Below are positions 4,290 to 60,352 of a stretch of 64,000 nucleotides of DNA, piece after piece. The number at the start of each line of letters is the position of its first letter. The stretch's first letter is position 1. Source of the DNA: Paratrimastix pyriformis (Eukaryota; Preaxostyla; Paratrimastigidae); assembly GCA_027972325.1 (NCBI GenBank), contig JAPMOS010000023.1, positions 258,001 through 322,000 on the forward strand, given 5' to 3'. The translations under genes and the position numbers were made by a program. The notes under the pieces were generated by a model, which saw nothing but the letters and a program-made list of their open reading frames with translations, ran no database searches and was not told where the DNA came from.

Positions 4290-7200
4290 ATGATGGCGGG
4301 ACGCTGGGCGGTGTGGGTGTCCCTCTGCTTGGTGACGTTATTTTCGGCCAAAGCGCTCGGAGTTCCCACACCTTGCTATGTTTCCAATACTGGGACAGAT
4401 CACCCCAATTGCACCCAGCTAAATGCACCTTGTCAAACTCCATCTTTTGCGATATCAGCCGAGCATTGTCAATCGGTCGTGTTCCTGACGGATCTTTCAA
4501 TTTATGAGGTCCGGAATCGCTCTCCTCCCTCAGGTTTCGCTTTCATCGTTATTTTGCAGTCGATCGTTATCCCCGCCGACATCCCGGATTTTTCTCTCTC
4601 AGGCGGCCCGAGCGGTCATTCGTTGACTTGCAATGAAAGTGCAACAGCATTTAGCGCTCTTGTAGCAACCTTGGATGACCAGAGTCAGATGACCTCTCTC
4701 ACCCTGGCCAACCTGACCTTCGTGGGCTGCCGCGCTCCCACCTCGGGCGGTGCCCTCCGCCTGTCCACCACATCGACGACCACCCTCGACGTGCTTGTCG
4801 AAGGTTGCGCCTTTGAGAGGTGCCAGGCCGCCTGCTCGGGGGGCGCCCTCGACCTGTACGCGGGCCCCGCCGCCGCTCGACTCCGGCTGGTCGTCACCGG
4901 GGCCACCTTCGCCGGGGGTCGCATCCTCACTTCGGCCACCTGCCCCCCAGAGCGTCGTGTGGGCGGGGCTGCGATCGCCCTGACCACGAACACGAGCGCC
5001 TCGGTCCAGCTGACGGCCACCGCGTGCGTCTTCAGGGACCATGTCGGGCTGGGCGCCTCGGCGGTGCGCACCGCGGGGCCTGTGGACCTGACCCTGTCCG
5101 GGTCCGCGTTCATCAACAACCAGGCGACGCCCTGCGTGGCCCAGGCCGAGGGCGGGGCCGGGACGGTGGTTGCCGAGGGCCCGAAGCGGGTGGCGGTGCA
5201 CGGGTGCCGCTTCCAGACCAGTGTGGTCCTCGACGCCCCCGGGGCAGCAGACTCCGCCCAGGGGCCCATCGGAGCCGCGCTGCTGGTGACGGGCACGACC
5301 TTTGCGATGGATGGGCCCCTGGTGGAGATTGCCGGGTGCACCTTCAACGAGTCCTCGGTGATCTCCACATCGCGGATCGTGGGCGGGGCCGTGTACCTGG
5401 CCCTTGGGGCCGGGCGGGCCAACATCTCCGGTCCGCGGGGGGTGGGCGACGGCGGCGACGGCGGCGGTGTGGTGAAGGGTATGAAGTGGACTTCAGTTCG
5501 CTTTGCCCTTCTTCCCCTTCATCATCTCATCCCAATCATCATCCAATCATCATCCAATCGCCAGCACCATCCTTCTTCTTCTCGGCCCCGTAGAGACGTC
5601 CATCCTGTGGAGCCACCTCGAGGCGTACGGCTCGCTGGCCTCAGCGGCCGCGCTGCACGTCGAGGCGGCCACCATTGGGCTGCAGGGCCTGCAGGTGGTG
5701 GGGTCGACGATTGAGGCGAGCGGCTTCGTCTCGGGCGGGGCGGTCTGCCTGGTCTACACCGAGCAGCTCGAGGTGGACCGGTGCGTCATCAGGGATTCCA
5801 TGGCCCTGGTCGCGGGCGGCGTCATCAACGGGGGCGCGATGGCCGTGCTGGCGATCCCGCAAGGCAGCACCGCTCCGGCGCGCATCACCAATTCGCTGTT
5901 TGAGGACAATGAGGCCCTGGGGGGGTCCATCTTGGGGGGCGCCCTCTTCACGGATGCGGCCCGGCTTCTCATCGCCGACACGGTCTTCCGTGCCAACAGC
6001 GGCACGGGCGCGGCCTTCGCCTCCGGGGGGGCGGCGGCCCTGTCGCGTGCCGACGGGCTGGCCATTCTAAGGGCCTCCTTCGTGAACAACAGTCTCGAGG
6101 CCCCCACTGCGGTAGGGGGCGCCCTGCACAGCAGCGCCGCCGCCAATCTGACCATCGTCGACTCGTGGTTCGTGGGGAACAGCCTCTTTGTGGACGGGTT
6201 CGGCAAGGGCGGGGCCGTGCACCTCATCTCCTACGTGAACGCCAGCCGAATGGTGATGGGGGGCTGCTATCTGATCAACAATTTCATCGACTGCCTGGAG
6301 TGCGCCTCCCAGGGCGAGGCCATGGTCATCATGGGGGCCAAAAATGCCCTGCTGGAGGGTGTTGTCTTCTTCACCACACGCCCGCCGGCCCCCTACACGA
6401 CCGGGGGCTGCCTCAGCCTCCAGACATCCGACGTGGAGATGCGCGGGACCACATTCACCGGGTGCCGGGCCCAGGACGGGGGCGCTCTGGCTCTCTCGGT
6501 CCAGTCGCGGGCCCTGCTCACCGATTGCGCCATGACCCGCTGCTCGGCCACCAGCCAGGGCGGGGCCGTGCGCGCTGACAGCCCGCTGACCCTGGTGGGG
6601 ACCAGCTGCGAGCAATGCTCGGCCCTGCTCGGTCTGCCGGCCAGCCCCCATCTCTCCTCTCGCCACGAGGGTTTCGTATCGCTTCCGTCTTCTCCGGGTG
6701 TTTTTTTTTTTGTTAACAGTTTTTTGGGGGGGGTGGGTGGGGGGGGGGCGGCTGATGGCCGACTATCGGTATTTTCTGCTCCTGCTGACGTTCGGTGGCG
6801 ATGGCGGCTGTGTTGGTTCGGCTTGGCCCTGGCTGCGCAGGGGGCTGCATCTCCGCGAGCAGCTCGCTGACCGTGAACAGGTCGGTCCTGACCGGGAACG
6901 AGGCCCTGCTCGCGGGCGGGGCGATCTTCATGCAGAACGCGGCCCTGGTCGTCGATGGCTCGACCCTTCGGGAGAACGCCGTCCCGCAGGGCAACGGGGC
7001 CGCCATCGCCGCATACCGGGGCAGCCTGGACCTCTCGCGGTCCACAGTCGCTGGGAACGTGGCTTACAACGGGGCCGTCTACGGGGTCAACGTGGCCCTG
7101 GTCTCGGCCGACACGACCTACGAGGGCAACGCCGCCTACATGGGGGCGGCGATCTCCCTGACGGGGGGCTCGCTCCGCTCGGCGGGGGACCTCATCCGCC

Positions 7201-10200
7201 AGCACACCGCCGAGGGCGCGCTGTACGGGGCCTGCTTCCTGACCAACGTCGAGCCGGCCATCTTCACCGCGGGCACCCTGGCCGGCAACACGGCCGACTC
7301 GGGGGGGGCCCTGGTGGCCATCGGGTCCTCGGTGTCCTTCGACGAGACCCAGCTCACCGACAACCGGGCCGTCGGCAACCGCGGGGGCGCCATGGCGGTC
7401 GTCCGGTCGCGAGTGACCATGACGGGCTGCAGCGCCCTGGGGAACAGCGCCTGGACCGACGGCGGGGTCCTCTACGCCACCCAGGACTCGACCGTGTCCA
7501 TCAGCGGGTCGACGTTCACCTTCAACATGGCCCAGGGCAGCGGCGGGGCCCTGGGGCTCCTGGGCCGGGTCCAGTGGCGCCTGGCCGACTGTCTCTTCGA
7601 CCGGAACGATGCCCTTCTCTCGGGGGGCGCCCTGTACGCCAGCCCGCCCATCGGGCCCCCCGCCGACCTGCCCTGCCTCCGATCGGGGTTCACCCAGAAC
7701 ACCGCCACCCAGATGGGGGCCGCCCTGTGCCTCAGCATCGCCAGCGCCTCGGGCAGCGCCTTGAGCGGCGCAGCGCCCCCGCGGCTGCTGGTAAGTGACT
7801 CGTGGTTCGAGGGCCAGGGATCGCCGGACCCGGCCCTGACCCCCAACGGGACCCTGTCCATCGCCTGCTCGGCCTGTGACATCCTCGATGCGGCGGAGGT
7901 CCATCTGGCCCGCACCAATTTCACGGGCAATGTGGGCGGGGGCCTGTACGCCTACCGGAATGTGCGCGCCGAGGCCGACGCGGGGTGCGTCTTCCAGGAA
8001 AACCCCGCGAGGCGCTCGGGGGCCGGCCGGATGAAGAGCGCCTGGCTGGAGGCCAACTGCACGCTCGCCCTGGGCGACGACGGGCCCAGCAACGACACGG
8101 CTGTGGCCGGGGGCACGGCCTGGATCTACACGGACCCCACCTCGGCCGTGGCCCGGCCACGGGCCCTGCCCCTGCTGCCCCAACTTCACGGGCTGCCTGT
8201 GGGCGAGGACGGCCGCCTGGGGGCCGCCGTCCGGCTGGCGCGGCCCGTGTGGGAAGTCTCCATCACCCTGCGCGATGCCCACGCCCTCGCCAACTTCGCC
8301 CCCGTGTGCCGCTTCCTGGTCGGAGGCGCGCCGGCCTGTGGGGGCCCCGTGCCCTTCTTCATCAGCCGCACCGACAACACGACCGGCACCTGCGCCCTGG
8401 CGGACCCCGCCCAGGAGGCCGCCGATCTGGTCTACGAGGTGCAGTTGAGGTCTGTCGGGTAGCGGGCCCTTGGCCCCCATCACACTCAGCGTGCGGATCC
8501 TGCCCCTTGCGGCGGCGCAGCAACGACGGGATCGAGTTCGTGAGCATCGGGAGGGTGACCACGTACCGAAGCTACACCGGGGTGGTCGCGGCGGTGGGCA
8601 TCACCCTGGGCGTGGTCGCGGCCCTGGGGGTGCTCGCCTTCGGTGTCTTCTTCCTGGCCCGGTGGGTGCGGCTGAAGCGGGCCACGGCCATCGAGCTGGC
8701 CTCGTGGCGCAGCTACCAGGTGGCCTCGGTCGACTTCACCAGCCTCAAGATCCTCCAGCGGGTCCGCCCTCCCGCCCTCCCCTGCGGTTGCCACGATCGA
8801 CATCCCGTCATCGTCGTTCAATCAATCTCAGCACCCAATTATCATCAATCATCATCATCATCATCATCATCATCGGCATCGGCATCATCGGCATCATCAA
8901 CATCGTGGGTGGCTGGGTGGTGGGCAGGTGGGCCACGGGGCAGCGGGCGAGGTCTTCAAGGGGGACCTCAACGGGACCGCGGTCGCCGTCAAGCGGCTCT
9001 TCGACACGAGCCCCTCCCAGGCCATGACGGACGACTTCCGCCGCGAGGTGGCCATGATGCGCACCCTCAGGCACCCCGTCTGTAGCCCCCGCCCCCGCTC
9101 CACATCCGCCCGCACACACCCGCACCCTGGAGGGAGTGACATGATGCGGCTGCTGCACGTGTGTCATCCTGGCTCCGCATCGCATCACTGTCTTGTCGTT
9201 GCGCCTCTTGGACGAGTCTGTGTGGCTGGTGGGTGTGGCTGGTGGGTGGGTGGCGCCAGGGGGGTGCCTGTGTGCCTGTGTGGCTTTGTGGCTGCAGTAC
9301 ATCGTGTCGCTGATCGGGATTGTGCCGACACTTCTTGCGGTGTCCTTCCTCCCTCTTTTTTCATGTGGCTGCAGTACATCGTGTCGCTGATCGGGATTGT
9401 GCCGACACTTCTTGCGGTGTCCTTCCTCCCTCTTTTTTCATGTGGCTGCAGTACATCGTGTCGCTGATCGGGGCCACCTTCGAGTCGCCCCGGCTGATCA
9501 TCACCGAGTTCATGGGGCGCGGCTCCCTCTACGGGCTCCTCCACGACGAGGCCCTCGCCATGCCGCCCGCCCTGCGCCTCCGCATGGCCTTCGACATGGC
9601 CAGGGGTCCGCCCCCCAGCCCCCACCTCCCTCCAACCTCTCTCCATCCCATCGCCCTGTCCCCTCATCGTGTCCCTGCGTGGTCTTGCCCCCCCTCCTCG
9701 CTTTCCTCCCATACGCCCACCCACCTTGGTGGCGGTCTTGGGTCTTGGGCGGGCTGGTGGCTGGGGCTGTTGGGCAGGCCTCAACTACCTGCACACCCTG
9801 AAGCCGCCCATCCTGCACCGGTCCGCACCCCGCCCCGCCCGCCCGTCCCCCAACCCTCTGCCGTCCCTTGGTGCGCCACTGGTGGTCGTCGCCCCACCTT
9901 CGCTGGACCTCCCATCGGAAAGATCCTTTCCGTGAACGCTGACGCTGGTGCTGATGCTGGGGTTGACGGTTGGCGGGTGGGGCGGGTGGGTGCGGGCGGC
10001 GCGGTGTGCAGGGACGCCAAGTCGCAGAACATGCTCACTCACCGTGGACACGGACACTGATGCTGCGGGTGCCTGGTGGCTGGTTGGGTGTGTGCAGGGA
10101 CGTCAAGTCGCAGAACATGCTGGTGACGGACGACCTGCGGGTGAAGGTCTCCGACTTCGGCATCTCGCGGCTCTCGCAGGAGGCCGGCATCACCACCGCC

Positions 10201-11208
10201 GCGGGCACCCCCGGTCCGCCAGACACGGCCACCCCGCACCGCACGGCCACCGGCGCGCAATTCCTTGAGCAGCCCGGCCGCCCGCGATGCCCTGCGCGCT
10301 CTGCTCGCGTTCATGTGGTGGCACGCGCCGCGTGTGTCTCTGGGTGGCCCGGGCGGGGCTGGGGCTGGGGCTGGGGCTGGGGCTGGGCGGTGTTGGGCGA
10401 ACAACAGCCTGGTCGGCGCCCGAGGTGCTGCGCGGGGACCGCTCGTGGCTGCCCTCGGACGTGTTCTCCTTCGGGGTCCGTGGCTGCTGCCCCGCCCTGG
10501 CCGCCCCGCCCTGTGTGGCGCCCCCATCGCCCGGTCCTATAGTCTAATGGTCAGGACATTGGACTCTGAATCCAAGAATCCTGGTTCGAGTCCAGGTAGG
10601 ACCAGCTCCTTTTTCCTTTTTCCTTCCCTCTCCAGCTGTTCTCTGGCCGCCTCATCCGCACCCACCTGCTGTTCCTCCCCCGGGCCGTCTGTGCGCAGGT
10701 TGTCCTGTGGGAGCTCTTCACCCGGCAGACGCCCTGGGAGGGGGTGCCCCCGCTGCGGGTGATGATGACCGTCACCCAGGGGGCCCGGCTGCCCGTGCCG
10801 CCCCCACCGGCCGCTGCTGGAGAGCCCGGCTGCCCGCCCCTGGTGGGGGACCTCATCCGGGCATGCTTCGAGGAGCGCCCCGAGGCCCGCCCCACCATGC
10901 AGCAGGTCCGACCGCCGTTGGCCCCCCCTGCCCGTTGTCGTTGTGCCGCCCCGCGGGATTGCGTTGCGTTCACTCAATAGCCCGCCATGTCGCTTGGGTC
11001 TGCGCCTGTCGGCTTGTCTGTTTGGGGGGTGGAGCAGGTCGTGGACCAGCTTGCCCCGGAGGTGGAGGCCCACCCGTACGCTGCCGAGGCGCCAGCCGGC
11101 GAGCGGCGCCGGCGCCGAAAGTCGCCAGTCCCTCAGGTCACAGCCGGCCCCGGGCGCAGGGCGGACTCCGTCGCCCTCCTCGAGGAGGGCCTCCTGGAGC
11201 AGCAGTGA
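4290..11208 (+). CDS. Receptor-like protein: Pmp-type beta-helix ectodomain, one TM helix, TKL protein kinase
   Basis: Eleven exons join in frame: 4290-5430, 5594-6631, 6841-8449, 8521-8761, 8928-9077, 9452-9605, 9778-9820, 10098-10213, 10408-10475, 10699-10915 and 11038-11208. The product starts with a signal peptide (MMAGRWAVWVSLCLVTLFSA). A roughly 1250-residue ectodomain of right-handed beta-helix type follows, with repeated GGA(L/I/V) and FxxN motifs as in pectin-lyase/Pmp proteins. Then come one membrane helix (GVVAAVGITLGVVAALGV) and a complete tyrosine-kinase-like domain: glycine loop VGHGAAGEV, VAVK lysine, HRDVKSQN catalytic loop, DFG, SAPE, and the C-lobe to PTMQQV. All key residues are present, so it should be active. 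It is probably a surface receptor; its ligand is unknown. All ten donors are GTCCG or GTCTG. The ATG at 4293 is an equal alternative start. Confidence 0.8.
9298..9470 (+). repeat. 77-bp tandem repeat carrying a 3' splice site and exon start
   Basis: A 77-bp unit begins at 9298 and again at 9375; a third, diverging copy begins at 9452. Each unit has the first bases of the kinase exon (encoding YIVSLI), then a pyrimidine-rich tract and the acceptor GTGGCTGCAG. Only the copy at 9452 continues into the in-frame exon (GATFESP), so two decoy acceptors with exon stubs lie upstream. Confidence 0.9.
10012..10121 (+). repeat. Partial duplicate of the catalytic-loop exon start
   Basis: GTGCAG followed by a near-copy of the next exon's first bases (GGACGCCAAGTCGCAGAACA) occurs at 10006-10036. 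It recurs at the true acceptor and exon 10098 (GGACGTCAAGTCGCAGAACA). The first copy quickly runs into unrelated sequence, so it looks like a decoy acceptor left by a local duplication of about 86 bp. Confidence 0.7.
10533..10604 (+). tRNA. tRNA-Gln (anticodon CUG), nested in an intron
   Basis: A 72-nt tRNA folds fully. The acceptor stem is GGTCCTA/TAGGACC with discriminator A. The D-arm contains TAATGG, the anticodon stem is TTGGA/TCCAA around loop CTCTGAA (anticodon CTG, reading CAG), and the T-arm is CCTGG-TTCGAGT-CCAGG. Internal A and B boxes are intact. It lies on the coding strand inside the intron (10476-10698) between the FSFG and VVLWEL exons of the receptor kinase. Pol III expression is expected from the internal boxes and downstream T-runs. 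Confidence 0.95.
10610..10621 (+). terminator. Pol III T-run terminator of tRNA-Gln
   Basis: Two T5 runs (10610-10614 and 10617-10621) start six bases after the tRNA 3' end, the usual Pol III stop signal. Confidence 0.7.
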
Positions 11209-11402: not shown

Positions 11403-12872
11403 ATGGAAGGCTCGAAGGCCCTAGTTGATTTTTCAACCCTTGTTTGCAAAGAAGAAGAGGTTCGTTTCTGCTTCCTTCTTGTTCCCCCTGATGCATTGAA
11501 TTGGGTAGCTTGGACATGGGTGGGTGGGAGGTGTCCACAGGGGCAATCTCAATGGAACCGATGTCGCTGTTCGAATCATCGACTCCGATGTCACCGAAGA
11601 ACAGTTCGCGGAGTACACGGGGCAGCTCCCATGTATGCTCTCGCTGCGGCATCCTGTCCGTGCCCGGGTGGTTCCAGTCGTTTTTGTTTTTTTGTTTTGC
11701 GGCATTTTTTTATCGCTCCTCACTGATCCCGCGTTCACCATCGTGGCGGCTGGGCAGTGCGTGGTGCGGCTGCTTGGGACGACGCTGGTGGGCGGGCAGC
11801 GGGCCATCATCACCGAGTTTCTGAGCCGCGGCTCGCTGGCCGAGCTGATCCACGACGAGGCGGCCCCCCTGCCCCTCCCGCTGCGGCTGCGGATGGCGCT
11901 CGACGTCGCCAATGGTCCGACCCGGCGGGTCTCGGGCCCCCTCTGATCATCCCTCCCCTCTTCCGGCACCGCGCACACAGGGATCAGCTACCTGCACACC
12001 CGGGACCCACCCATTGTGCACCGGTCCGCCTAACCACCAGCCTCCTCGCCGCCCTCCCCGTCCTCCATGGGGAGTTCTCCGCCACAGTCTTGCCCCCCCC
12101 CCCCCCCCTCCCCCCGTCAGGGACATTAAACCCCAGAACTTGCTGCTGACGGAGGACCTGCGGGTGAAGGTGGCCGATCTGAACATCGCATCGTTGGCCC
12201 CTCACAGACGCTGCGGTGTCCGGCCCTCCAGTCCGTCCCTTTCTCCCCCTTCTTCCTACCCCGCGCCCTGAACCCCTGCGCCCCTGCGCCCCCGCACCCC
12301 CGCACCCCCTCCGCATTCTTGTGAGCTGGGCGAATCCACATTGCCTCTCTTTTTGCACCCGGGTAGATTGGATCGCCCCCGAGGTCGTCCGAGGGACCGA
12401 GTCTGGCCTCCCCGCGGACGTGTTCTCGTTCGGGGTCTGCGATGAGGGACCCCCCCTCCCCCCCCCCCCCCCCCCCCGACGCCGTGGTTGCGAGGTTGGG
12501 GAGGGGGGGGGGTCATCCTGCCTCACCGCCTCACCGCCTCGCGGCATGGGTGTGCGCAGGTGGTTCTCTGGGAGCTGTTCACCCGGAAGATGCCCTGGGA
12601 GGGCGTCCACCCCATGCGGCTCATCTTCAATGTGGGTCGGGGCGATCGGCTGCCCGTGCCGCCCCCCGGTGAGCATATCACGCCCGGCATCGTGCAGCTC
12701 ATACAGGACTGCTTTAAAGAGCCGGGCGCACGCCCCACCATTCAGCAGGTCGGTTGCCTCTCGCCACCCTCGAAACAACTCATGGTCCCGTTTGTGTGAT
12801 CAGGTGGTGGAACGACTCGCGGCTGAGTTGGGCGCTGTCACACCCACGCCCGAGGGGAAGGATGACAACTAA
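11403..12872 (+). CDS. TKL kinase-like protein, probably catalytically impaired (copy 1)
   Basis: Eight exons join in frame: 11403-11459, 11509-11655, 11758-11914, 11981-12023, 12121-12215, 12367-12434, 12560-12748 and 12804-12872. The product (about 275 residues) is a kinase domain alone, with no signal peptide or TM segment. A glycine loop is present (LGHGWVGGVHRG), but the beta-3 lysine is arginine (DVAVRIID) and the DFG motif reads DLN (VADLNIASLAP). HRDIKPQN, IAPEV and PTIQQV remain. Within this family, loss of the lysine and of DFG points to a pseudokinase or scaffold; that is inference. It is clearly related to the C-terminal kinase of the upstream receptor. Donors are GTTCG, GTCCG (three times), GTGTC, GTCTG and GTCGG. 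Confidence 0.7.
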
Positions 12873-14073: not shown

Positions 14074-15585
14074 ATGGAAGGCTCGAAGGCCCTAGTTGAT
14101 TTTTCAACCCTTGTTTGCAAAGAAGAAGAGGTTCGTTTCTGCTTCCTTCTTGTTCCCCCTGATGCATTGAATTGGGTAGCTTGGACATGGGTGGGTGGGA
14201 GGTGTCCACAGGGGCAATCTCAATGGAACCGATGTCGCTGTTCGAATCATCGACTCCGATGTCACCGAAGAACAGTTCGCGGAGTACACGGGGCAGCTCC
14301 CATGTATGCTCTCGCTGCGGCATCCTGTCCGTGCCCGGGTGGTTCCAGTCGTTTTTGTTTTTTTGTTTTGCGGCATTTTTTTATCGCTCCTCACTGATCC
14401 CGCGTTCACCATCGTGGCGGCTGGGCAGTGCGTGGTGCGGCTGCTTGGGACGACGCTGGTGGGCGGGCAGCGGGCCATCATCACCGAGTTTCTGAGCCGC
14501 GGCTCGCTGGCCGAGCTGATCCACGACGAGGCGGCCCCCCTGCCCCTCCCGCTGCGGCTGCGGATGGCGCTCGACGTCGCCAATGGTCCGACCCGGCGGG
14601 TCTCGGCCCCTCTGATCATCCCTCCCCTCTTCCGGCACCGCGCACACAGGGATCAGCTACCTGCACACCCGGGACCCACCCATTGTGCACCGGTCCGCCT
14701 AACCACCAGCCTCCTCGCCGCCCTCCCCGTCCTCCAGGGGAGTTCTCCGCCACAGTCTTGCCCCCCCCCCCCCCCCCCCCCCCCCCCCGTCAGGGACATT
14801 AAACCCCAGAACTTGCTGCTGACGGAGGACCTGCGGGTGAAGGTGGCCGATCTGAACATCGCATCGTTGGCCCCTTCCGGACGCTGCGGTGTCCGGCCCT
14901 CCAGTCCGTCCCTTTCTCCCCCTTCCTGACCCCGCCCCCGCGCACTGAACCCCTGCACCCCCGCACCCCCGCGCCCCCGCGCCCCATTCTTGTGAGCTCG
15001 GCGAATCCGCATTGCCTCGCTTTTCGCACCCGGGTAGATTGGATCGCCCCCGAGGTCGTCCAAGGGATGGAGTCTGGCCTCCCCGCGGACGTGTACTCGT
15101 TCGGGGTCTGCGAGAGGGATCCCCCCTCCCCCCGACGCCATCCCGACGCCATCCCGACGCCATCCCGACGCCATGGTTGCGAGGTTGGGGGGGGGGGGGG
15201 GGGGGTCTCCCTCGCCACCTCGCGGCATCACTGCCTCGCGGCCTCACCGCCTCGCGGCATGGGTGTGCGCAGGTGGTTCTCTGGGAGCTGTTCACCCGGA
15301 AGATGCCCTGGGAGGGCGTCCACCCCATGCGGCTCATCTTCAATGTGGGTCGGGGCGATCGGCTGCCCGTGCCGCCCCCCGGTGAGCATATCACGCCCGG
15401 CATCGTGCAGCTCATACAGGACTGCTTTAAAGAGCCGGGCGCACGCCCCACCATTCAGCAGGTCGGTTGCCTCTCGCCACCCTCGAAACAACTCATGGTC
15501 CCGTTTGTGTGATCAGGTGGTGGAACGACTCGCGGCTGAGTTGGGCGCTGTCACACCCACGCCCGAGGGGAAGGATGACAACTAA
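14074..15585 (+). CDS. TKL kinase-like protein, probably catalytically impaired (copy 2)
   Basis: A near-identical paralogue of the gene at 11403, with the same eight-exon structure and intact frame from MEGSKALVDF to the TAA at 15583-15585. It keeps the VAVR and DLN substitutions, so these predate the duplication. Small differences are LAPSGRC for LAPHRRC, VVQGMESG for VVRGTESG and DVYSFG for DVFSFG, plus changed intron tracts (28 C residues at 14761-14788; a CATCCCGACGC repeat near 15135-15172). Keeping the frame in both copies argues that the substituted protein is still used. Confidence 0.7.
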
Positions 15586-19811: not shown

Positions 19812-21566
19812 TTAACAGAATTCCGGGATGCGCGAAAAAGCAGGGGCCCGACCCGCGCAATGCTCGTTCATGTGTTTGTAGGGGGCGATGGTGTTGAACT
19901 GGGGCATGTCCATGACCCACCGGCCCGCCACCTGGCACCAGGGCAGGTCGAGCTCCTTGCAGGCCGCGGGCCGGTCCCAGCCGAGGTCCCAGATCTTGAG
20001 CGAGTAGACATCGCGCGGGGTGAACTCGGCCGTGTTGACATTGTCGCACCAGTCCTGGTCGAAGGCCCCGCCCGCGCACAGGATCCGCAGCACGAGCACA
20101 TCGCAGACGATCGACGGGTGGCCATCGGGGTAGATCCACTTGTCCTGCTCGGGGTAGGCCGCCACCTCGGAGATGGAGAGCCCATTGTCCTCGGCCAGGG
20201 ACATGATGCACTTGATGGTGGAGCAGCTCGTCTCGATCCCGTAGCCGTGCTTCAGGCGCATGTTGAGCCCGTCGATGAGCATCTGCTTGGGCAGGAAGGA
20301 GCCGGCCATCTCGAGCATCTGGACGGCCACCCACATGGTTTCGTTGTTCAGGGGCGGGGGCAGGTTGTCACTGGGCGTGTCGATGGCCCCGAAGCCGAAG
20401 TTGGGGTAGCCAAAGGGCAGCCCTTCGACCGTCTTGAAGTAACCCAGGGCCGCCTCGGTGTTGAAGTTGTTGCGCAGCTCGGGGCGAAGCTTGGCCCAAA
20501 CAACCGTGTAGTTGTACTGGTGGTAGTTGTGGATCCAGGTGCTCCAGAGGGTCTTCTTGATGCCGTACGGGGCTGCAGGGCGAAGCTGTCAGACGGGTGC
20601 GGAAATGGCGAGGTGAGCAGACGAGGAAGATCAGAGCCGGGTGGGGCATCGGAATGATCGGTGGACTCGTGGATGTAGACGTGCCCATCCGGGTAGCGAA
20701 GAGCAACAGCAGTGTGGGCAGCATGTGAGCCCGACACTGTGACAAATCAGAAGTGGGGACGAAAAAGAGAGACAAACAGACTCACAACGATATCCATCTC
20801 GAGGCCACACATACGGAAGAGGAAGAAGACGTCACCGGACTGAATCTGGTCCTCAGGAATATCCAAGAGAGTGTCTTGGCGAAGGACTGGCGTCCAGCCC
20901 AAGTCCTTCTTCAGGAAGTTCGCAAGCGCTGCCTCTGTTTGATGTCCGAAGAGAAGCTCGTAGAATCGGAAGGCCTAGCGGAAGAAAAAGTGTATGGAAA
21001 AATACCAAGCAACCGACCTCAACAAGAGTCGAGACAACGCCATTTTTAAAGTAGAAAACCCGGAGGCCATCGTACTTCACATCATTCATTTCTTCCGGAG
21101 ACTTCCAGCCCTTGAAATTGAAATGGTGGACTCCGTGAAAAAGGAAGTCGTGGACAATCACGCGTTGCGACGTCGCAAAGACGTAAAGGTCGGTGCAGAA
21201 TGTACTTTTGGCATCGTTCAGTTGGAAGGACCAGCTCAGGCCATCACCCGTGAAGCTATCGATCCAGCCTTCACTTTTGCGGAAACATGATTCGCTCCAG
21301 GTCAGGTTTTGACCGACGCGAAGTGTGCCAACGTAGATAGGAAGCATTTGAGCGGGATCACCGTTGCTTGGCATCAGCTGCTTCCAATCTTCCGAGGATG
21401 GATGGTCACGATGAGCCGGGGGCAGAATCCAGTTCTCAGTCCCGAACTCCGTCTGCAGTGTTTGCGTGACATGAAGCGGGCTGAAGTCGCGCTGAGTTGT
21501 CCGGGCGGCGCTCAAGTGGAGGACACAAAACAAGAACAAAAAACTGGACAGCTTGGTCGTCATCAT
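19812..21566 (-). CDS. Secreted permuted papain-fold (YiiX/NlpC-P60-like) protein
   Basis: Exons on the minus strand include 21566-21018, 20974-20815 and one from 20736; the last exon runs from about 20580 to the TAA at 19812. A signal peptide (MMTTKLSSFLFLFCVLHLS) is followed by a roughly 160-residue N-terminal region with Cys and Trp. A module then reads like permuted papain-fold enzymes: SGDVFFLF, GSHAAHTAVALRY (candidate His), HESTD, LPFGYPNFGFG, and GIETSCSTIKC (candidate Cys). The tail contains WCQVAGRWVMDMPQFN. Donors are GTCGGT and GTATGT. The family call rests on motif order only, and the substrate is unknown. The boundary near 20670-20580 is unresolved. Confidence 0.5.
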
Positions 21567-21777
21567 CTGAGACCGAGCAAGGACGACGGGCTTGGGAGGT
21601 TGTTAAGTGGAAATTGCCGAGGGGTTTGTCGATGATACTCCTTTTCTCCTTCGTTGACGGTTCCAGTGGGGATCTGATTTTATCAGCAAATCTCATCATA
21701 TTCGATATGCCGCCTCAATAAAAGAGACGAACAAATGTGAAAGGATGGATTTTCTTCGTTCTTCTCCAATTGTCCCC

Positions 21778-22000
21778 GGGCCAACACGTTTTCCCCGGGC
21801 CAACACGTTTTCCCACCATCAATAACTATAGATAGTGCATCCTCAAAATGAGTTCGTTCCCCGCCCCCGGCCCCCAAAAAATCGTCACCTGGCACAGTGT
21901 TTTCCCCTCTTTCTTCCTTTCGCTCTAGTTTCGTCCTCAACCTTTTTGCATTTGCATCTCCCTTCTTCTTCCTTCTTGTCAAAAGCCAACACGTTTTCCC
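21778..22000. repeat. Three copies of GGGCCAACACGTTTTCCC
   Basis: Two copies lie in tandem with a 19-bp period (21778-21795 and 21797-21814). A third, slightly shorter copy (GCCAACACGTTTTCCC) is at 21985-22000. A diverged partial copy (GGGCCAATGTG) lies near 22060. Confidence 0.8.
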
Positions 22001-22107
22001 CCCCTTCTGTTGATCATCCCATTCTTCTCCACAACCTTCTCTGGCAACTGTCACCACCGGGCCAATGTGTCTCTAGTGTGAGCGAATGTTCGCATAGGGT
22101 TGAGAGG

Positions 22108-23167
22108 CACGGCGTGACACTTGGTAGCTAGAACCGAGCATTGGACTCTCGGTCTTCTCTGTCAAGAACGGTCAACCGGCCGACGACCGGGTTTTCAAAG
22201 AGAGCAAGTATTTTGGGTGTACTTTGTGGTGGTGCATGGTTTTCGCGCAAAAAAATGGGGTGTTGTATTGCTTTCTGGGCATCAACTGCGGCGATTCGCT
22301 TCAACTGCCAGCCAAGAAGTGGGGGTTTTGATTTCAGGCAAGGCACCGCTCATGCGGCGAGATAAACGCGTGCCGATGAAATTGAACAAACCGCACCTTT
22401 CTCGATGACCTCGGCGACGAGATATACAGATGAACAGGGGTCTGAGCACATCTTGCTCGTCGTCAACAAGGACCCCAGCCGGAACAAGGAGCATGAAGCC
22501 CCGCGAGCAGAAAACATGCGGCACCCTTCGGCTTTGCCTGAGAACTTCTTGAGCGGAGTTCGTCCGAGAAAGGCGGTTTGGGTGCTTTTGTGGGTGAGGT
22601 ATAGACGTGTTGGAAAAGAGTTGAGACAAGATCGCGCTCATGTGTCTGCCAATAACATTGAAGAACAACCTCCTTCAACCGAAAGATAGAATGTGGAGCT
22701 GTTCCGGAGATGTTTCAATTCATCTGTTAATGACCTGAGAAACGACACGAACAAAGCCGAAGCTCTTGCCGATCCACCGCAACGATGTCTTCAAGAATTT
22801 CTTGATGTGAAACGGTGAACATCACCAATGTACTGGAAGGAAATTCGGAAAAAGCAAGCAGGATTAATTTCTCTTCTGGCGGTGAAGCACCTGGCAAGGT
22901 TGGCAGGAGGAAAATGTCTCGCCTGGGGTGCGAAAACGGAACCGCGTAGAGTTGTCAGACCCAACCAACCAAGGCAAAACGTCAAAACGCAAGTGGGTAA
23001 GTCCATTTTCGCATTCAGCAACCTTCTGTCTGTTGACAAAAAAGAATGCCGTAAATCTTCCCAACCGCTGACTTTCCGAACCAAACCTTTGGGGTGTTGG
23101 GACAACTCCGCGAGGTGAGTTTAACAGTGTCCATACAAATATGCGGGCTACCAAGTGTCACGCCGTG
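22108..23167. repeat. Element-like segment bounded by a perfect 21-bp inverted repeat
   Basis: The 21 bases at 22108-22128 (starting CACGGCGTGACAC) are exactly reverse-complementary to 23147-23167 (ending GTGTCACGCCGTG). The intervening 1018 bp have no long ORF. Terminal inverted repeats of this size suit a non-autonomous DNA transposon. I see no obvious target-site duplication, so this remains a suggestion. Confidence 0.45.
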
Positions 23168-23250
23168 GAGGGAGAGGGCTCGGCCGCCTCTCAGCTTCTG
23201 GCTGGATTTTGGGTATCGCCCCCTGTCGAGATACATTTTCGATCTTCACA

Positions 23251-24123
23251 ATGGCAACTCCCGAGTGCGCCAAGTTCGATCAGTTCAATACCCAGACCTA
23301 TGTCTGTTGCGGGTTCCCTTTCAAACCTTTTAATATTTCTCGGCAGACTGTTGCTTACAAGGCCGATAACGTCTATGCTCTGTTGGGGAACTATCTCGAT
23401 AAGTATGTCCGGAACGGGATGCACATCATCGAAGTCGGTTGCGGTGCCAACGTTCCTGGGCTCTCCTGGTGCTCGAAGAACCGGAATGTGACCGCGTCTG
23501 TTGTTCCATTTTTCGTGGTCCCGAAACGTTCAACGGACTTTTCAGTGATATCTACGAGCCCAGTGATATGTTCCACTCAGCCGCGAAGCTGATCGCCACA
23601 CTCCCCGGTGCTGCCGGATACCAGGCCCATCACATGGCCGCCGACGATATCCCTGCTTCCAACCCCCGCAAGGGTGATGTGCTTATCTTTAACCGGATGC
23701 TCCATGAGTGGCGTCTCTATGAGCTGAAGCGTACTGGCTCGTTCGATCTGGCTGTGGAACTTCGGAAGGTGGCACATGCCTGCCTGAATCCCGGCGGGAT
23801 TGTCATTCTTGGCGACTTCTCCATCCCCGACGGTCTTCCCCAGGGTCTGTTCGCCCCTGCCCACACACCACTCAGCATTCTCACTCCCTGCTCCGGTTTG
23901 TTTTGCTGCCACAGCCCAACTCACCCGGGAGATGGAGGCCCTGCGCATCCGCATCGGGCACACCCACCCGCCCCAGGACTACGTCACCCTGCCCCAGGCC
24001 AACATCGCCCTGCGCGAGGCCCCCTGCTCGCTGGCCCCCCTGACCGTCCTCGAGAGCAGCCTGCTCAACGGGGTCGAGCATGACACCTCCCGGGTCTACT
24101 GGATGACCGCCGCCCGCCTGTAA
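23251..24123 (+). CDS. Class I SAM-dependent methyltransferase
   Basis: Three exons join in frame: 23251-23495, 23546-23844 and 23915-24123; both donors are GTCTGTT. The product has about 250 residues. It shows motif I in MHIIEVGCGANVPGL (SAM-binding Gly loop), an acidic beta-2 end (NVTADIYEPSDMFHSAAK), then KGDVLIFNRMLHEW and LNPGGIVILGDFSIPDG, the usual order for class I methyltransferases. The N-terminus (MATPECAKFDQFNTQTYVCC) is family-unspecific, and the C-terminus adds about 70 residues ending MTAARL. No substrate-specific motif is recognised. The first exon is visibly less GC-rich than the last. Confidence 0.75.
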
Positions 24124-33707: not shown

Positions 33708-43479
<9,772 letters not shown>

Positions 43480-43717
43480 GAAGCTTTGGAAACCCTCTCC
43501 CTCTCCTTCCCTCCCCTTGTAAACAGTTGCTCCGGCAACAGTTTGTGGTCGTTTTCATGAGAGTTTGAACTTTTGAAACGACGGCCGCCGCAACCCGTTC
43601 GCCTGGTGTTGGCAATTTCATCCACACCCGCCCGGGGGACGCAGACGCCCCTTCTCCCAAGACGTGCCCAGCCTGACGGTGATGAGCATATACAGCGGGC
43701 ATCTTGGGGAAATGCGC

Positions 43718-60352
<16,635 letters not shown>

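Follow-up and report, generated by a model that had tools for sequence, protein, structure and literature searches.

In the canonical system, donors of the GTRAGT type are matched by the 5′ end of U1 small nuclear RNA (snRNA), AUAC-psi-psi-ACCUG (psi, pseudouridine), and in humans a variant U1, vU1, occurs alongside the canonical one. Zhuang and Weiner reportedly showed in 1986 that a base change in U1 restores pairing with an altered donor; such experimental suppressors concern one laboratory site, whereas the donors and U1 genes described here appear to form a natural code used genome-wide. The starting point was a 64,000-nucleotide stretch of Paratrimastix pyriformis DNA (assembly GCA_027972325.1, contig JAPMOS010000023.1, positions 258,001 to 322,000; hereafter the window), in which the introns of a receptor-like kinase gene begin with GTCCG or GTCTG (together GTCYG). 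These donors and the U1 loci of the same assembly, read from DNA alone, very probably reflect an ordinary U2-type GT-AG spliceosome with a co-evolved, rewritten U1/donor code. The system shares with the canonical one the pairing register, GT-AG introns and standard U6 and U5 cores, its U1 matching the Rfam model over the full length at scores under the curated cut-off, and differs from it in having AG at U1 positions 5-6, U at position 11 and GTCYG donors.

Several natural systems come close to this arrangement. The +4 A-to-U switch of Saccharomycotina resembles the present case in being a lineage-wide shift at +4; it tracks METTL16 and SNRNP27K with U1 fixed (PMC10581693), whereas in P. pyriformis U1 and +3 have changed and both genes are present. 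That study covered 227 yeasts and 9 outgroups, and in each of the 236 species for which it had a U1 candidate the ACUUACC of U1 was unchanged; the authors propose a psi5-to-A change in U1 as a possible compensation, which they looked for and did not find (PMC10581693). In the diplonemid Sulcionema specki one U1 gene likewise differs at its 5′ end, but it coexists with a conserved U1 of comparable donor complementarity (PMC12621601), while here a canonical U1 was not found. Fritillaria borealis, with its non-GT/AG introns, also shows a genome-wide donor change with METTL16 kept; however, its two U1 versions have identical, conserved 5′ ends, and the explanation proposed is a duplication of U2AF together with changes in m6A (PMC13326754). 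The GUUUGU donors of Entamoeba histolytica share the pyrimidines at +3 and +4 and the G at +5, but U1 RNA is reported to be absent from that species (PMC6018208, PMC6085484), whereas here it is present and matches the donors. The original prediction, which had been made from the window's letters, knew of no described GTCCG donor class, and searches of open-licence papers likewise showed, among the matches listed, neither such a class nor a changed U1 code.

Donor sequences of the introns

The receptor-like kinase combines a beta-helix ectodomain, a transmembrane segment and a TKL-type kinase, the Pfam matches being obtained with a gene model in which one acceptor was corrected by hand. All ten of its introns had been predicted to carry GTCYG donors (seven GTCCG, three GTCTG), with CAG acceptors in nine and TAG in one (5431-5593), and an independent gene finder recovered the same ten introns, donors and acceptors agreeing; only the gene finder's acceptor for intron 8, at 10272, is wrong, homology placing it at 10407, which is CAG as well. 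Seven of the ten junctions lie within the kinase domain, where the alignment to CTR1 is gapless to five residues around each. Introns 1-3 lie outside the conserved domains and are based on frame and coding signal. The gene finder starts the gene at 4689 rather than at 4290 as earlier proposed; the frame is open from 4257.

Introns were placed by homology in seven genes, whose translated models were aligned to proteins of solved structure. CTR1 served for both the receptor kinase and a second kinase; the other genes are PI4KA, Vps34, methylthioribose-1-phosphate isomerase, an outer-arm-like dynein heavy chain and PRP8. An intron was accepted where no gap lay within five residues of the junction, as judged by eye. 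The resulting 40 introns, 15 of them in PRP8, comprise 29 GTCCG, nine GTCTG, one GTCAG and one GTCGG. Position +3 is C and position +5 is G throughout the 40, a pyrimidine occupies +4 in 38 (C in 29, U in nine), G stands at −1 in 30, and GTRAG occurs in none. All 40 have GT..AG ends; as the gene finder admits no ends but GT and AG, this is judged from how the proteins align across the junctions. PRP8 is the strictest case, with 854 residues aligned without a gap to PRP8 of entry 6qw6 across 11 introns. At two PRP8 junctions a flat donor model led the gene finder to GTGGG and GTTCC, and at another it split the gene; GTCCG is the donor that gives a gapless alignment in each of these three places. 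Equal-length alternatives exist for three of the 40 introns (GC at +6 in PI4KA; GC at +15 and GT at +12 in PRP8).

The set of 40 leaves aside receptor-kinase introns 1-3 (unconserved), intron 12231 of the second kinase (nearby gap), eight of the 14 PI4KA introns, which lie beyond the aligned catalytic part and include GTCAC and GTCGC donors, PRP8 intron 1 (GTCCG, beyond the query), two glycine-dehydrogenase introns (GTCTG, nearby gap; GTCTT, ambiguous), the ten introns of a PRP4-like gene, a near-duplicate kinase (14306-15512), and the CotH, Nup192 and PP4R3 genes, which have Pfam matches only. In the minus-strand PI4KA gene, for which GTCCG donors had earlier been noticed, the six homology-placed introns of the catalytic domain are GTCCG in five and GTCTG in one. 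In the PRP4-like gene, which is unaligned, six of the ten introns are GTCYG and the others begin with GTGCC, GTCCA, GTTCC and GTCGC.

The survey was extended by a two-strand gene finder with flat initial donor and acceptor models, in which only GT and AG were required and which was seeded with two stretches of receptor-kinase exon. It was run on 183,110 bases (the window, the contig pieces L037-L040 and sequence flanking 27 snRNA genes), amounting to about 0.2 Mb of a 56-Mb assembly that was searched in full for U1; some identical 40-base words shared by the training pieces (26 lines) were retained. Even in the opening round, with no donor model yet formed, GTCCG accounted for 24 of 64 introns. 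The final 309 introns include 154 GTCCG and 49 GTCTG, a total of 203 GTCYG, as against a single GTRAG; +3 is C in 87%, +5 is G in 79% and −1 is G in 67%. The 135 introns of the whole window divide into 95 GTCYG, 27 other GTC, five GTRNG, one GTRAG and seven others, and GTCYG makes up 35 of 60 in L037-L040 and 73 of 114 in the snRNA-gene flanks. A canonical GTRAGT starting model still led to 155 GTCCG and 52 GTCTG among 311 introns, and removal of the window (with first-run exons as the coding seed) left 76 and 29 among 184. Part of the non-GTCYG minority is gene-finder error, as at the PRP8 junctions; another part may be genuine, one GTCAG and one GTCGG being placed by homology.

Table 1. Coordinates of the genes and introns within the window
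Feature	Position	Strand	Basis
Receptor-like kinase gene with ten GTCYG introns	4290..11208	+	PF07714 over 258/258 positions; PF13229
Intron 1, GTCCG..TAG	5431..5593	+	Frame continuity, gene finder
Intron 2, GTCTG..CAG	6632..6840	+	Frame continuity, gene finder
Intron 3, GTCTG..CAG	8450..8520	+	Frame continuity, gene finder
Intron 4, GTCCG..CAG	8762..8927	+	Gapless kinase alignment at junction; no equal-length alternative within 15 bases
Intron 5, GTCTG..CAG	9078..9451	+	Gapless kinase alignment at junction
Intron 6, GTCCG..CAG	9606..9777	+	Gapless kinase alignment at junction
Intron 7, GTCCG..CAG, within HRD motif	9821..10097	+	Gapless kinase alignment at junction
Intron 8, GTCCG..CAG, activation segment	10214..10407	+	Kinase alignment, with the closest gap six residues upstream
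Intron 9, GTCCG..CAG, holds tRNA-Gln gene	10476..10698	+	Gapless kinase alignment at junction
Intron 10, GTCCG..CAG	10906..11037	+	Gapless kinase alignment at junction
Second kinase gene model; introns 11656, 11915, 12024 (GTCCG) and 12435 (GTCTG) placed by homology, 12231 not	11635..12799	+	
PI4KA-like gene; six catalytic-domain introns placed by homology (GTCCG in five, GTCTG in one)	43718..48824	-	

Some further observations concern these genes and introns. The tRNA-Gln (CTG) gene within receptor-kinase intron 9 lies at 10533-10604 (+), on the same strand as its host. In introns 5 and 7, as read by eye, the intron's acceptor and the beginning of the exon that follows recur as repeats within the intron itself (approximately 9290-9460 and 10010-10110), so that decoy acceptors lie upstream of the modelled one. 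The acceptors of 200 gene-finder introns of the form GTCNG..CAG lack a clear polypyrimidine tract, G making up 22-47% at −20 to −5 and 59% at −4, and U2AF may be unusual as well. The branch-site consensus is yUnAy, with which CTCAC, 2.6-fold enriched near acceptors, is compatible; several G-rich words are enriched more. The kinase models at 11635-12799 and 14306-15512 are near-identical, apparently through a recent tandem duplication. The dynein gene is axonemal and closest to outer-arm chains. Archamoebae are not known to have axonemal dyneins, and an archamoeba such as Mastigamoeba, to which the GUUUGU donors of Entamoeba had first pointed, was not confirmed as the source of the DNA. The glycine dehydrogenase fragment (L039, 1-791, minus strand) is closest to separate subunit 1 (1wyt, presumably a Thermus protein) and not to the one-chain type. 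An Rfam tRNA match of 44 bits at 51785-51854 (+) lies inside a predicted minus-strand gene and was not called by ARAGORN (bacterial code).

U1 genes and their predicted pairing with donors

Eight U1 loci on eight contigs were identified, the same eight being returned by the Rfam U1 model, by sequence similarity and by a pattern in which positions 5-6 were left free. All eight read ATACAGACCTTGC, where the Rfam consensus is AUACUUACCUGG, and all start with AUACAGACCU rather than AUACUUACCU. The changes relative to the consensus are AG for UU at positions 5-6 and U for G at position 11, and the 5′ end is ACAGACC in every locus and canonical ACUUACC in none. Neither the Rfam model, which scored 41 of 992 candidates, nor similarity nor pattern searches revealed a canonical U1 in the assembly, and the exact U1 start had no match in viral and prokaryotic contigs. 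A co-evolved U1 had been among the original suggestions, together with a covariance-model search for U1 and U6; that search returned a U1 whose 5′ end is altered so as to match the donors, and a U6 whose ACAGAG box is standard.

The Rfam match covers positions 1-166 (E 2e-10 to 4e-13), and the predicted fold consists of joined stem-loops and a separate 3′ hairpin. All eight loci fall below the curated cut-off, and independent support was therefore sought in the upstream sequence. GTCCCATAA, with at most one mismatch, is located 54-69 bases upstream of all 27 snRNA loci examined (L001-L019 and L029-L036), which represent eight of eight U1 matches, eight of ten U2, seven of seven U5 and four of four U6; a scan of both strands of 104 kb from elsewhere gave a single TCCCATAA. 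The shared element is probably the proximal sequence element of the lineage. It lies 60-62 bases 5′ of both the U1 and the U2 starts, and this common spacing supports the assigned U1 start. Two of the U5 loci each lie between the two halves of a gene, CotH-like in L013 and a dynein heavy chain in L014, and are probably intronic.

In the standard register, U1 C8, A7, G6 and C4 pair with +1, +2, +3 and +5 in all 40 homology-placed introns, C9 pairs with G at −1 in 30 and A5 with +4 in nine, whereas none of the 40 would have a pair at +3 if position 6 were the canonical U. The mean predicted duplex energy of these donors in their best register is −7.4 kcal/mol with the organism's own U1 versus −3.6 with the canonical one; the former is favoured by 39 donors and the latter by one. 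When the 16 dinucleotides at U1 positions 5-6 were ranked by energy, GG was best, AG second and UU last. Gene-finder donors exceeded sampled background GT sites by 1.22 pairs with the organism's U1, by 1.57 with GG and by −0.01 with UU. Canonical donors pair weakly with the organism's U1 (−6.7 versus −14.0 for CAGGUAAGUAU). At +6, which faces U1 A3, U (18/40) and C (17/40) are nearly equal, and U is favoured over background.

The rest of the spliceosome appears ordinary, with U1, U2, U5 and U6 each present in several copies. The U6 ACAGAG box is standard in four of four loci, the U5 loop is canonical, and the U2 loci match their Rfam family, GTAGTA being present in the copy read (L031). Two LUC7 loci were found. 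The genome also encodes an SNRNP27 domain (positions 19-47 of 56) and a METTL16-like open frame containing CMCNPPFF, which we take to be the METTL16 motif; the Pfam family also matches five of 14 control genomes. With both present, plain loss of METTL16 or SNRNP27K was rejected as the cause.

According to the proposed mechanism, U1 would bind donors through C9-C8-A7-G6-(A5)-C4 with G−1 G+1 U+2 C+3 Y+4 G+5, a new strong pair, G6:C+3, replacing psi6:A+3. A5 would pair with U and tolerate C at +4, purines being disfavoured. U6, with its standard ACAGAG, would then take over the donor through C42:G+5 and G44:C+3. U1 and the donors would have shifted together, leaving the U6 box, the U5 loop and the U2 copy read unchanged.

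Competing explanations

Several points weigh against a rewritten U1/donor code. The splice junctions and U1 5′ ends are predictions from genomic DNA, the U1 loci score 50.8-60.2 bits against an Rfam cut-off of 69.5 (none of eight above), and when U1 is folded on its own, positions 4-8 are predicted to be paired with the Sm-site region. As the Rfam U1 model scored 41 of 992 candidates, a second U1 of highly divergent sequence may have escaped detection. A search of the genome for U1-C returned a single PF06220 match, which was rejected as WBP4-like by eye. The remaining points concern +4, where the commonest donor, GTCCG, places C opposite A5, and where a U1 with GG at positions 5-6 would fit better (−11.6 versus −7.4). 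In the 200 GTCNG..CAG introns +4 is C in 141, U in 40, G in 18 and A in one, and C outnumbers U 3.5-fold, just as in the intron background at +9 to +40 (0.549 to 0.156), so that A5:U pairing is without visible selection. A is nearly absent from +4, compared with 10% in the background. The position acts as 'pyrimidine, not A', with no visible preference for the paired base. The original doubt that C at +4 could pair with U1 holds for the 29 of 40 donors with C, in which A5 is unpaired, and not for the nine with U, in which it pairs. In the rewritten code, A5:C would be a tolerated mismatch flanked by two strong pairs.

U1 opens with AUACAGA, and the same seven bases stand around the ACAGA box of U6. 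U6 ACAGAG can form Watson-Crick pairs with +2, +3 and +5 in all 25 donors examined, which suggests that the usual conflict between U1 (A+3/A+4) and U6 (C+3/U+4) has been settled in favour of U6. U1 might then be a copy of the donor-reading strand of U6, both RNAs reading one donor sequence and the U1-to-U6 handover swapping equal strands, with C at +4 accommodated perhaps through a modified A5. This idea is rather unlikely, its odds being lowered by the U6 energies, which show a gain for GUCUG (−3.9 and −5.0) and none for the commoner GUCCG (−0.7 and −0.8).

As a refinement of the rewritten code, A5 might be modified, for instance to inosine, or a further U1 with GG at positions 5-6 might exist, so that C at +4 would be truly paired. 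The prevalence of C at +4 and the rank of GG, which is best by pair count as well as by energy, favour such a pair, although no U1 with GG was found in the genome by pattern or similarity, and the excess of C over U at +4 is no larger than in the background. A5 may be inosine, but this is not favoured, because inosine should also accept A, the rarest base at +4. Altogether the refinement is improbable.

Slightly less probable still is the proposal that donors are chosen mainly by U6 (ACAGAG with UCYGU) and proteins, the U1 change being a neutral by-product; recognition with little reliance on U1 had also been mentioned in the original prediction. The U6 pairing in 25 of 25 donors and the indifference of +4 to C or U would fit it, as would E. 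histolytica, which has GUUUGU donors and is reported to lack U1 RNA. However, the mean predicted U6 energy of the 25 donors is no better than that of canonical GUAAGUAU (−1.93 versus −1.90), eight near-identical U1 copies have been retained with the snRNA upstream element, the change in U1 is that which restores pairing at +3, and the G at −1 matches U1 C9. Some such character possibly remains at +4.

Base composition is a highly implausible source of the GTCCG signal in this GC-rich genome with C-rich introns. In its favour, introns contain 55% C at +9 to +40, and G+C is at least 63.8% in 14 of the window's 16 four-kb blocks (lower at 20001-24000, 0.537, and 40001-44000, 0.603); the raw GTCCG word is not clearly enriched (0.92 of first-order and 1.22 of second-order expectation; 1.24 and 1.31 for GTCTG), raw GTNNG counts being uninformative. 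Against it, C at +3 in 40 of 40 has a chance of 4e-11 at 55% C and is accompanied by an equally constant G at +5, seven other dinucleotides forced as donors learned weaker flanking motifs (0.83-2.46 bits versus 3.41 and 3.7 for GT), and U1 is altered to match. Introns of the minor spliceosome (U12-type, whose donor is RTATCC) or non-spliceosomal introns, suggested by the non-standard donors, have an equally negligible likelihood, given the GT-AG ends, the lack of RTATCC in any of the 40 homology-placed introns and the multiple genes for U1, U2, U5 and U6, the snRNAs that the searches covered.

Significance of a probable change in the U1/donor code

The 5′ end of U1 has been treated as a fixed point of eukaryotic biology, and in P. 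pyriformis both partners in the code, U1 and the donors, seem to have changed. If this is true, the contract between U1 and the donor can be rewritten, and the organism would offer a natural test of the contribution of U1 apart from that of U6. Genuine U1 genes might then also be overlooked, in lineages reported to be without U1, by searches that depend on ACUUACC, and gene models for genomes of this kind would probably be wrong where the annotation software had been trained on GTRAG donors.

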